A program made the position numbers and the translations under genes. The notes under the pieces are model-generated. The model was given only the letters and a program-made list of their open reading frames with translations. It searched no databases and had not been told where the DNA came from. A stretch of DNA of 36,141 nucleotides from Moraxellaceae bacterium (GTDB taxonomy: Bacteria > Pseudomonadota > Gammaproteobacteria > Burkholderiales > Rhodocyclaceae). The first letter of the stretch is position 1; every line of letters begins with the position of its first letter. Positions 21,853 to 25,174 of this stretch are shown here, one piece after another. The stretch lies in NCBI GenBank assembly GCA_031119205.1, contig JAVHYF010000040.1, forward strand, positions 1 to 36,141. The letters run 5' to 3'.

Positions 21853-21873
21853 AAATGCGAATAGTTCGTATTT
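21853..21873. promoter_or_regulatory. Fur-box-like site before the ZIP-sodA operon (best match)
   Basis: 21 bases: AAATGCGA, ATAG, TTC, GT, ATTT, with GC before and AAAT after. It is the most symmetrical of the five sites: the two outer nonamers are inverted repeats with one mismatch. It lies 75 bases before the ZIP start. Predicted iron repression of the whole operon. Confidence 0.75.
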
Positions 21874-21948
21874 AAATAGCAGGCGTTCTCATCACGCGCC
21901 ACGCACTGGTTCGCATTGGCTCGCAGCGTGAGGGCTGGAGACACGACC

Positions 21949-22845
21949 ATGCATTCACAGATCCGCCGCCAGATGAAAACCTCCGCTCGCGTCCGCCACG
22001 CCTTCGGCCTGTCCATCGTCGTGGCCGGCGCCGCCATCCTGCTCGTGCAGGCCTGGCAGGTCATCGCAGCCGTGCCGGCGATGCGTGCCGCGCTGGCTTC
22101 CGGCGGCATCGCTGCCCTGGCCACGGCGCTGGGCGTGCTGCCCATGCTGATGACACGTGCGCCCGGCCGGCGCATCCACGACGCCATGCTGGGCTTCGGT
22201 GCAGGCGTGATGCTGGCGGCCACCTGTTTCTCCCTCATCGTGCCGGCACTCGGCGCCGCGCAAGGTCAGGGACATGGGGCCTGGGGCGCCGCCCTCATCA
22301 CCGGCGCTGGCCTGTTGCTGGGCGCAGGCTGCCTGATGCTGCTGGAGCGGCAGTTGCCGCACGAACACTTCTTCGGCGGCGCGGGGGCCGAGAGCAGCCT
22401 GCGCATCCGCCGCCTGTGGCTGTTCATTTTCGCGATCGTGCTGCACAACATTCCGGAAGGCCTGGCCATCGGCGTGTCCGCCGCCGGCACCGACGGTGCG
22501 CGTGCGGCTGCACTCGCGACCGGCATCGCCATCCAGGACGTGCCGGAGGGTCTCGTCGTCGCCCTGGCGCTGCAGAGCGCCGGCATCCGTCGCTGGCCAG
22601 CCGCCCTGCTCGGTGCAGCCTCCGGGCTGGTCGAACCGGTGGCCGCCGTGCTGGGCGCCGCCGCCCTGAGCTATAGCGCGCCCCTGCTGCCTTGGGGCCT
22701 GGCCTTCGCGGCCGGCGCCATGCTGTTCGTAGTGAGCCACGAGGTGATTCCCGAATCGCATCGCCAGGGCCATGAGCGCTATGCCACCACCGGCCTGCTC
22801 ATCGGCTTCGTGTTGATGATGGTGCTGGATACCGCGCTGGTCTGA
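21949..22845 (+). CDS. ZIP family metal transporter (GufA-like)
   Basis: 298 residues, about eight membrane helices. The metal site helices carry HNIPEG (166-171) and QDVPEG (196-201), with SHEVIPES at 263-270, which is the pattern of GufA/ZupT-like ZIP permeases that bring in zinc, iron or manganese. There is a His-containing loop before it (PHEHFFGG, 137-144). ATG 21949 has CTGGAG nine bases upstream; ATG 21973 is an alternative. It is the first gene behind the Fur box. Since the operon also has a manganese dismutase, manganese or iron uptake is likely, but the metal cannot be read from sequence. A ZIP gene also lies next to sodA in P. aeruginosa. Confidence 0.9.
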   Translation: MHSQIRRQMKTSARVRHAFGLSIVVAGAAILLVQAWQVIAAVPAMRAALASGGIAALATALGVLPMLMTRAPGRRIHDAMLGFGAGVMLAATCFSLIVPALGAAQGQGHGAWGAALITGAGLLLGAGCLMLLERQLPHEHFFGGAGAESSLRIRRLWLFIFAIVLHNIPEGLAIGVSAAGTDGARAAALATGIAIQDVPEGLVVALALQSAGIRRWPAALLGAASGLVEPVAAVLGAAALSYSAPLLPWGLAFAAGAMLFVVSHEVIPESHRQGHERYATTGLLIGFVLMMVLDTALV

Positions 22846-22862
22846 GCCGGGGCTGCCACGCC

Positions 22863-23270
22863 ATGTCGATCCCGCTGACCACGCCCGCCCTGCACGCCCA
22901 CTGGCTGCACTTGCAGTGGCAGTTGCGCTGCGCGCTGGCGAGTACCGACGGCGGCCTGATCGACGACTACCTGGCGAGTGCCGACGAGCTGTTGCGCCGC
23001 CATGCCTGCGACCCTGTGAGCACCCGGCTGCGCACATTGCAGACGCTGCTGCGCAGTGCCGGCGATCCGACCCTGCCCTGGCGCTGGCGCCGCCTGTGCC
23101 TGGCTTATGCGCCCGCGGCACAGGCGCGCGTCGTATCCCTGCTGCATCCGCATGACCCGATTGCCCTGCAGGCAGTAGACGCCGCCGTGCAGCGCTGCCG
23201 CAACGAGCTGTACTCACCCATCCTCGACAAGTGCTTTCCCGCGCCGCAACTGCGCGCCTGCCAGCGCTGA
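22863..23270 (+). CDS. Small FagA-like protein in the Fur-linked operon
   Basis: 135 residues, soluble, mostly helical, with LHLQWQLRCALASTDGGLID and LPWRWRRLCL as the notable parts. It has four cysteines (Cys22, Cys48, Cys81 and others near the end: CRN, KCF, ACQR). It follows ZIP by 17 bases. Its place and its Trp/Arg/Cys-rich LPWxWRxLCL stretch recall FagA, the Fur-associated protein encoded before fumC and sodA in Pseudomonas. The family link is from memory of that locus and is unverified. Function unknown. Confidence 0.68.
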   Translation: MSIPLTTPALHAHWLHLQWQLRCALASTDGGLIDDYLASADELLRRHACDPVSTRLRTLQTLLRSAGDPTLPWRWRRLCLAYAPAAQARVVSLLHPHDPIALQAVDAAVQRCRNELYSPILDKCFPAPQLRACQR

Positions 23271-23295
23271 GCCGGCACTTCAAGGGCCATCCGCC

Positions 23296-23796
23296 ATGCA
23301 CCAGACCCCATCCGCCGAACCGATAGCCGGCGAACACTGGAAGCAGACCACTCGCCGGGGCAACGCCTTCTTCGGCAACGAAGCATTCGAGCTGGCCCTG
23401 CAGTGTTACGAACAGGCCCGCGACATCGTGCTGCTGCATTTCGACGACTGGCCGCAGGCCGACGATGCGGTGGCCGCGCTGGTGGTCAGCTACCTGAATC
23501 TCGCCGACACCCATGCCTGCCTGGGTCGCCCGCAGGTCGCGGCCACCACACTGTGCGCCATCCATAACAGCCTGGCCGAAGCGGCTACCGACGCCGACCT
23601 GCCGTCGCCGTTACGCAGCGCAGCCGGTCGTCACCTGCGCGAAACCTGGACGGCCCTTGTGCAGTTCCGCCAGCAACACGGCGAGCAGGCAGAGCGGATC
23701 GACGCCACGCTGGCCCGTCGCGCACGCGCGCCGGACACGGTGCTCCTGCCACCCGGCCCCCATGCCGCCCTGCCGGGTGTCAGCACCCTGCATTGA
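23296..23796 (+). CDS. Helical-repeat (TPR-like) protein of the sodA operon, OrfX-like
   Basis: 166 residues. It starts with [20 protein letters not shown] and [12 protein letters not shown], which reads as one TPR hairpin, then [20 protein letters not shown] as a second hairpin, then a longer helical region. It should be a soluble binding protein. Located 25 bases after the FagA-like gene and 67 bases before sodA, the place held by orfX in the P. aeruginosa fagA-fumC-orfX-sodA locus. A helper in metal delivery or dismutase maturation is a guess. It has a His and a few Cys but no clear metal motif. Confidence 0.72.
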
Positions 23797-23863
23797 GCGC
23801 CGCTCTGAGCACACCTCTGAACGCACTTTCTTCCGCCTTCACCCCAGCCACGAGACAACGACA

Positions 23864-24478
23864 ATGCCCCATACCCTGCCCGCCCTGCCCTACGCCGTGG
23901 ACGCCCTGGAGCCGCACATCGATGCGCAGACCATGGAGATCCACCACAGCCGTCACCACCAGACCTACATCAACAACCTGAACGCCGCGCTGGCCGGCAG
24001 CGGGCTGGAAGAGGAGCCGGTGGAACAACTGCTGCGCCGCTTCGACAGCCTGCCGGAGAAGCTGCAAACGGCCGTGCGCAACCAGGGTGGCGGCCACGCC
24101 AACCACAGCCTGTTCTGGGCAGTGATGACGAAGGAATTCGACGGTGCGCCAAGCGGGGCGCTGCGCGCCGCCATCGAACGCGACCTCGGCAGCGTCGACG
24201 CTTTCAAGACCGCCTTCACGCAGGCTGCGGTCAGCCGCTTCGGCAGCGGCTGGGCCTGGCTCAGCGTCACTCCGCAGGGCAAGCTGGTCGTGGAGAGCAC
24301 CGGCAACCAGGACAGCCCGCTGATGCAGGGAAACACTCCCATCCTCGGCCTGGATGTGTGGGAGCACGCCTACTACCTGCGCTACCAGAACAAGCGGCCC
24401 GAATACATCGCCGCCTTCTACCACGTCATCAACTGGGCGGAAGTCGAGCGCCGCTGGCGCGAAGCCACCGGCGCCTGA
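23864..24478 (+). CDS. sodA: Superoxide dismutase, manganese type
   Basis: 204 residues, the normal length. Metal ligands are His27 ([15 protein letters not shown]), His81 ([11 protein letters not shown]), Asp164 and His168 (DVWEHAYY). Gly77 in GGGHANH and Gln149 in GNQDSPL are the marks of manganese enzymes; iron enzymes carry the glutamine in the other position. It removes superoxide in the cytoplasm. Its place in a Fur-linked operon fits the known switch from iron to manganese dismutase when iron is short. DUF2325 follows six bases later. Metal choice is inferred and cambialistic behaviour is possible. Confidence 0.96.
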
Positions 24479-24484
24479 TCCACC

Positions 24485-25174
24485 ATGTGCAGTGCCCCGG
24501 ACGACTTCGACCTGCTCGCCCACGAGCTGGCGGTGCTGATGCGGCATTACGCGCGCGTGCAGGCCGAGTGCGCTGCGCTCGCTGCCGCGCAGCGGCTTGC
24601 CATCGATGCACTGGAGGCTGAACTGTTGCGCGCCCGCGCCGCCGCGGTCATCCGCACGACGGCGCTGGCCTACGCGCGTGAAGACCGTGCTGCACTGGAA
24701 GCAGCCGCACCGGGGCTGCGCCGGCGCGCCATACTGCAACGCGATCTCACCTCCGCGCAGGAGCGCGTACAGGACCTGATCCGAGAACGTCAGTACTGGC
24801 AGCGCCGCGCACATGCGGCGGAAGCGCGCTCCGGTGAGCCGGACTCACGCGCGGTGTTGTGCCTGGCGCCGGACGAAGCCGGCGCACTGCACGCGCAGGA
24901 CCTGCGTGCCGACGGCAGCGGACAGCTCACTGCCATCGCCGGTATGCGCGTGAGCACCGAGGCCGATCTCGAAGCCAGCCTGCTCGGCGCCGATCTGGTC
25001 ATCTGCCAGACCGGCTGCATCAGCCATGACGCTTACTGGCGTGTGCAGGACCACTGCTCGCGCACCGGCAAGCCCTGCATGCTCGTCGAACATCCACAGG
25101 CCATCCGCCTCGTACGCCGCGACGGCTTGCTCACCGCCGTGACCACCAGTGGACCGCTAACGACCGAAGCCTGA
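24485..25174 (+). CDS. DUF2325 domain protein with N-terminal coiled coil
   Basis: 229 residues. The first 120 are rich in Ala, Arg, Glu and Leu and read as a coiled coil. The C-terminal part (about 125-220) is a DUF2325 domain with VLCLAPDEAGALHAQDLRAD, then LVICQTGCISHDAYWRVQDH, and Cys residues also in DHCSRTG and KPCML. The Cys/His arrangement (CxxxC-x2-H and two later Cys) could bind metal or do redox chemistry. Function unknown. It follows sodA by six bases, so it should share iron control. Confidence 0.82.
   Translation: MCSAPDDFDLLAHELAVLMRHYARVQAECAALAAAQRLAIDALEAELLRARAAAVIRTTALAYAREDRAALEAAAPGLRRRAILQRDLTSAQERVQDLIRERQYWQRRAHAAEARSGEPDSRAVLCLAPDEAGALHAQDLRADGSGQLTAIAGMRVSTEADLEASLLGADLVICQTGCISHDAYWRVQDHCSRTGKPCMLVEHPQAIRLVRRDGLLTAVTTSGPLTTEA

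Follow-up and report, generated by a model that had tools for sequence, protein, structure and literature searches.

In the bacterial contig JAVHYF010000040.1 (C16; the whole stretch of 36,141 nt is called the window here), a set of five co-directional genes encodes a ZIP-family metal transporter, a FagA-like protein, a small tetratricopeptide repeat (TPR)-like protein (OrfX), a Mn-type superoxide dismutase (SOD; SodA) and a short protein with a DUF2325 domain, behind a site resembling a Fur box. We consider it likely that these genes form a Fur-type operon that provides iron-free superoxide defence during iron starvation. The set would be a relative of the Pseudomonas fag locus, rearranged and with a DUF2325 gene recruited into it. 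The evidence is read from DNA and protein sequences, and consists of the gene content, the Fur-like boxes, the metal signature of the SOD, the recurrent clustering of these genes in other genomes and a conserved cysteine motif. The parts of such an operon are known from Pseudomonas; the putative Fur link of DUF2325 and its repeated pairing with SOD are new. Among the papers listed by the literature searches, none described DUF2325 as linked to Fur in betaproteobacteria.

In the proposed mechanism, Fur would leave the site at 21854 when iron falls, and the five genes would then be made, giving a ZIP importer, two small accessory proteins (FagA and OrfX), the Mn-type SOD and the DUF2325 protein. 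The Mn-type SOD would replace an FeSOD encoded elsewhere in the genome, while a separate Fur-boxed fagA2-fumC pair would provide an iron-free fumarase. DUF2325 would be a general betaproteobacterial iron-starvation member that has several times joined SOD operons. The features of the locus are as follows.

21854-21872, + strand: Fur-box-like site AATGCGAATAGTTCGTATT, 76 bases 5' of the ZIP ATG, score 17.6
21949-22845, + strand: ZIP-family divalent metal transporter (PF02535), ATG start, TTG at 21916 also possible
22863-23270, + strand: FagA-like protein, homologues in matching contexts
23296-23796, + strand: OrfX, small TPR-like protein, sub-threshold TPR matches, homologues in matching contexts
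23864-24478, + strand: SodA, Fe/Mn superoxide dismutase, Mn-type by its metal signature (PF02777, PF00081)
24485-25174, + strand: short DUF2325 protein (PF10087), a long N-terminal part followed by the domain

Layout of the operon and its Fur-like site

The five genes are separated by gaps of 17, 25, 67 and 6 bases, and every open reading frame (ORF) lies where an earlier note on this DNA had placed it. A simple pattern scan of 21600-25300 found no sigma-70 promoter or terminator, and the predicted single transcript thus rests on gene spacing. An Rfam scan of 19000-27500 gave no match, and PADLOC gave one negligible match, of FagA to SduA (E 0.0063).

Fur sites were scored with a generic model built from the textbook consensus, and a score of at least 16, a threshold picked after the scores had been seen, was counted as a match. 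A site as good as that at 21854 arose in 1.5% of 200 Markov-shuffled windows. The earlier note had ranked it first among the Fur-like sites of the window, but under the generic model it comes third, behind those at 7836 (22.3) and 7932 (19.5). The top five sites (7836, 7932, 21854, 19186 and 12212) all lie 5' of iron-related genes. Those at 7836 and 7932 sit between two divergent extracytoplasmic function (ECF) sigma genes, that at 19186 precedes PepSY genes and is also upstream of one divergent gene, and that at 12212 precedes a gene at 12261 labelled ECF sigma by eye.

Likeness to the Pseudomonas fag locus

In Pseudomonas aeruginosa, where the gene order is fagA-fumC1-TPR-sodM-ZIP, PA4467 (ZIP), PA4468 (sodM), PA4469 (TPR), PA4470 (fumC1) and PA4471 (FagA) are all listed in a table as Fur-controlled (PMC3195088), and both SodM and FumC1 are reported to increase when iron is limiting (PMC8557868). 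The loci PA4471-PA4467 and PFL_0906-09 share with the window operon a FagA, a TPR protein, a Mn-type SOD, a ZIP and Fur-type control (PMC3195088, PMC3377617, PMC3742457). Three traits of the classical operon recur here, namely an orfX directly upstream of a Mn-type sodA, a fagA (weak in similarity, but supported) and an upstream Fur-like box. In contrast to the Pseudomonas operon, the ZIP gene comes first, fumC is found elsewhere together with another fagA, and DUF2325 is last. FagA and OrfX are tentatively equated with the Pseudomonas proteins by context, size and TPR label. The earlier note suggested an iron-sparing MnSOD operon of the Fur type, similar to the fag locus with its ZIP; this is supported by the gene content, the box and the table in PMC3195088.

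The same note had reported no fumC, which holds for the five-gene operon but not for the genome. A second, distant fagA on contig C41 (L003 1201-1596) directly precedes a fumC (L003 2-1126) that is cut by the contig end, and a box just upstream of this pair scores 30.8, with every specified model position matched. The absence of fumC from the genome was therefore rejected. Since fumC lies on C41, outside the operon, the window locus is a variant and not the classical fagA-fumC-orfX-sodA operon.

No Pfam or NCBIfam family was assigned to the FagA-like protein, which is 26-27% identical to the fumC-adjoining FagA proteins of L003 and of an operon from the same genus (L154). A FagA search recovered the L154 copy at E 2e-6 and the second copy of its own genome at E 1.8e-4. 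Within the family, a single-sequence search detected FagA in 1 of 101 genomes, and tblastn found no FagA2 in plasmids.

OrfX gave TPR matches below threshold in Pfam and only generic TPR or pentatricopeptide (PPR) repeats in a profile search of PDB sequences, and it is a single-copy protein in its own genome (E 0.01). Its homologues stand directly before sodA in Thauera linaloolentis (L061), Variovorax (L056) and Aeromonas (L139), and adjoin ZIP in L136 and FagA in L137. Four of 297 genomes of the family contain OrfX (the own genome, G537, G642 and G608); it is alone in G642, and in G608 an OrfX-ZIP pair lies amid genes that by eye look like TonB, FecR and ECF genes. Class-wide searches found OrfX in 3 and 4 of 369 genomes, and none of these loci had the classical Pseudomonas gene order. 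The only plasmid match of OrfX by tblastn was in Aeromonas. L137, L138, L160 and L161 were read from ORF matches alone, without gene calls.

The metal type of SodA and the cargo of the ZIP transporter

SodA matched the C-terminal domain PF02777 at 140.4 bits, and PF00081 as well. It has Gly at D-2 and a C-terminal Gln149, a signature shared by all nine SOD relatives checked. According to PMC10172142, a C-terminal Gln with Gly or Ala at D-2 is a strong, not absolute, indicator of Mn preference. By these signature residues the window SodA is of the Mn type, and a corresponding activity is predicted. A second SOD of the same genome, on C35, is of the Fe type, with Thr at D-2 and an N-terminal Gln, and has no Fur box. 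A close relative of SodA is found in 2 of 8 genomes of the genus, the own genome included, with 83% identity in the second (G553), while the other SOD matches in the genus are 42-46% identical and the own Fe-type copy 43%.

The ZIP protein matched PF02535 at 87.1 bits (cut-off 35.1) and the sequence of the BbZIP structure 5tsa at E 9.7e-59. A ZIP on C83 of the same genome is much nearer to BbZIP (E 2e-116), so that the window ZIP was rejected as the BbZIP orthologue and is a paralogue; the C83 gene has no Fur box. The window ZIP scored 102 bits against the NCBIfam ZupT model, far under its 252-bit cut-off. Its likeness to the BbZIP and ZupT transporters is one of ZIP family membership. With the ZIP encoded in L154, the operon from the same genus, it shares 76% identity.

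Import of Mn by this ZIP is predicted, with Mn the presumed cargo. Alternatively, the protein may be a general low-affinity importer of zinc or ferrous iron rather than the Mn supplier of SodA, a reading to which we give substantial, though less than even, weight. BbZIP relatives are known mainly as transporters of Zn and Cd, which favours such a role. In PMC8456098, Zn is also proposed for the Pseudomonas homologue PA4467, and ZupT is described as binding Zn, Fe, Mn and Cd with Zn preferred. The general importer is opposed by the repeated pairing of ZIP with Mn-type sodA (L056, L061, L081, L099 and L154), by Fur-like boxes ahead of the ZIP-sodA operons (in a scan with the Fur model only) and by the lack of an Nramp match in the genome. 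The same genome, however, has three ZIPs over the family cut-off, and the absence of Nramp therefore does not single out the window ZIP. The locus links one ZIP subgroup to a Mn-type SOD with predicted iron-type control, and no Nramp importer was detected in this genome.

The DUF2325 protein and its family

The last protein of the operon matched PF10087 at 40.0 bits (cut-off 33.6), and all 48 members of the alignment did so at E 0.001 or better. Its domain contains a CX3CX12CX6C motif formed by C174, C178, C191 and C198, and a further cysteine is found at C29. The four motif cysteines are kept in all 48 of these proteins and C29 in 47 of them. Because two peptide patterns had been used to fetch the loci, the conservation of C174 and C178 is partly selected, whereas that of C29, C191 and C198 is not. 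DUF2325 relatives found without these patterns mostly keep the motif, while the most divergent ones do not. The conserved four-Cys site suggests that DUF2325 binds a metal or has thiol reactivity. No credible DUF2325 relative emerged from a profile search against PDB sequences, and tblastn detected no DUF2325 in plasmids. A DUF2325 of any length occurs in 26 of 101 genomes of the family.

A contig scan with the alignment of short DUF2325 proteins gave at least 523 confirmed relatives, and 80 of these were analysed with flanks of up to 8 kb on each side, shorter at contig ends. The neighbour table covers 72 of the 80 loci, as the gene caller missed DUF2325 in eight. Seven of the 80 contain sodA, always at most 1.04 kb from DUF2325. 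The gene orders are OrfX-SodA-ZIP-DUF2325 in Variovorax (L056), DUF2325-OrfX-SodA-ZIP in T. linaloolentis (L061), DUF2325-SodA-ZIP in another Thauera locus (L081) and SodA-DUF2325 in Herbaspirillum (L065, L069 and L071); in a further Variovorax locus (L099), DUF2325 points towards ZIP and a partly called SodA frame of 88 amino acids in a convergent arrangement. The DUF2325-OrfX-SodA-ZIP set of G537 is probably the same locus as L061 and was counted once. L034 has ZIP-DUF2325 only, and in the same-genus L154 (genome G553) the consecutive genes are ZIP-SodA-FagA-FumC, with no OrfX or DUF2325 nearby. Permuted sets of sodA, ZIP, OrfX, FagA and DUF2325 are thus found in other bacteria, which answers the first of two doubts, a lack of clustering outside this strain, that the earlier note had raised about its own proposal. 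On a DUF2325 tree made by a quick method, in which the position of the window protein is unsure, the label of SOD or ZIP neighbourhood changed at least four times.

Fur-like boxes are frequent in this family. Matches stood at 59 of the 80 DUF2325 operon heads and at 21 of 477 control heads from the same loci (Fisher 1.4e-43, uncorrected for relatedness). All thresholds from 12 to 20 separate the two groups (62/80 against 67/477 at 12; 47/80 against 7/477 at 20). The walk to the operon head went too far in L034 and astray in L056; with the heads named, boxes were found there. Directly upstream of DUF2325, a box was present in 63 of the 80 loci and in at least one locus of 18 of the 23 lineage labels. 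Ahead of the related operons, boxes scored 22.3 (L154), 28.9 (L056 and L139), 25.1 (L061 and L081), 20.4 (L034) and 19.5 (L136). Long DUF2325 genes from relatives in the family (about 410-560 amino acids; L103-L109, L111-L127 and L129) had a box in 10 of 25 cases; this count covered 350 bases ahead of each gene and 150 within it, and has no control at that window size. The 25 are 29 rows without the duplicate L128 and the short L101, L102 and L110.

The idea that DUF2325 is specific to SOD operons was rejected, since the flanks examined lack sodA in 73 of the 80 loci, whereas a Fur-box match is present in the majority of the 80. The same numbers favour a passenger role as an alternative, in which DUF2325 would be a normal member of the Fur regulon, functionally unrelated to SOD and found here only through the clustering and promoter sharing of iron-starvation genes. 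Ten of the 80 loci also have a homologue of a TonB receptor, FecR or ECF sigma gene within 2 kb, although the SOD loci L056 and L061 are among the ten; neighbours of this kind are also seen farther out than 2 kb (TonB in 6 loci), in a zone that makes up about three quarters of the DNA. Against a passenger stand the several origins of the pairing with SodA, in different gene orders, and the Campylobacter jejuni DUF2325 gene, which is clustered with katA, another gene for defence against reactive oxygen species (ROS). We put this alternative at only a little short of an even chance. Our preferred view is that DUF2325 is probably an iron-starvation or oxidative-stress protein, active on metals or thiols, that was recruited into the MnSOD operon.

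The katA cluster of C. jejuni includes cj1384c, whose product is a DUF2325 protein reported to be iron-responsive and Fur-repressed (PMC9426514, PMC4491227, PMC3815106). The cj1383c-cj1384c pair resembles the window locus in its DUF2325, iron response, Fur motif and neighbouring ROS enzyme (PMC9426514, PMC4491227, PMC3815106). However, Cj1384 has 104 amino acids and seven Cys and lacks the long N-terminal part of the window protein, and the C. jejuni locus has a catalase instead of a SOD and also involves PerR.

It is possible that DUF2325 loads metal into the SOD. More specifically, one of OrfX, FagA and DUF2325 might be a metallochaperone dedicated to the maturation of SodA, into which it would insert Mn, a proposal that appears quite unlikely to us. 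It draws on the position of OrfX immediately ahead of sodA (window, L056, L061 and L139), on a Cys-rich DUF2325 adjoining sodA in several lineages and on the heme-trafficking neighbour Cj1386 of C. jejuni katA. Yet OrfX occurs without sodA in the flanks examined of L135, L136, L137 and L138, L154 combines sodA, ZIP and FagA without OrfX or DUF2325 nearby, and DUF2325 is mostly away from sodA. Further, Mn does not usually favour all-Cys sites, which also argues against such a factor. A broader proposal, unlikely in our estimate, is that DUF2325 proteins form a widespread iron-starvation class handling metal or thiol chemistry for ROS enzymes, betaproteobacterial MnSOD and Campylobacter catalase among them, with the window protein a dedicated metal-handling partner of SodA. 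To our knowledge, no such partner of a bacterial Fe/Mn SOD has been known before, and DUF2325 would, if this were true, be the first. For the little-described DUF2325 family, the Fur-type boxes, the defined Cys motif and the recurrent pairing with Mn-type sodA offer a testable first function.

Several points weigh against an iron-starvation operon with a recruited DUF2325. The exact five-gene order was found only in its own genome, the window Fur box is imperfect and the assembly (4.6 Mb in 90 contigs) is 96% complete. Most DUF2325 relatives are not near sodA, and the 80 loci are phylogenetically redundant, 17 being from Achromobacter and 16 from Janthinobacterium. Five of the 23 lineage labels have no box directly before DUF2325, and no box was found at the three Herbaspirillum SodA-DUF2325 pairs (scores 9-12) or at the OrfX loci L135 (5.4) and L137 (11.1). 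In addition, where a box lies between divergent genes, it could control the adjacent gene instead.

Several Janthinobacterium loci (L032, L043, L044, L048, L052 and others) have DUF2325 followed by a thioredoxin-like gene, a small regulator resembling CsoR/FrmR and a transporter resembling the CDF family (by eye). In loci of the Thauera/Azoarcus type (L070, L072, L073, L076, L101 and L102), a conserved gene of about 100 amino acids lies ahead of DUF2325. L070 has a Fur-box match before this gene; the other five have no box in the stretch scanned, that between it and DUF2325.

Surroundings of the operon

Ahead of the operon, several modules of TonB-receptor, FecR and ECF-sigma genes occupy window positions 3288-18583. 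They are followed at 19313-21617, behind the site at 19186, by a PepSY_TM gene with small membrane neighbours, which ends shortly before the operon. The Variovorax SOD locus L056 also has a smaller PepSY-looking ORF (by eye) upstream. Downstream, at a distance of 8 kb from the operon, is an M3 peptidase gene (33023-35101). A gene that by eye looks to be of the same family directly follows the Thauera SOD operons (L061 10959-13028 and L081 10330-12399), and this shared position is possibly a trace of common synteny.

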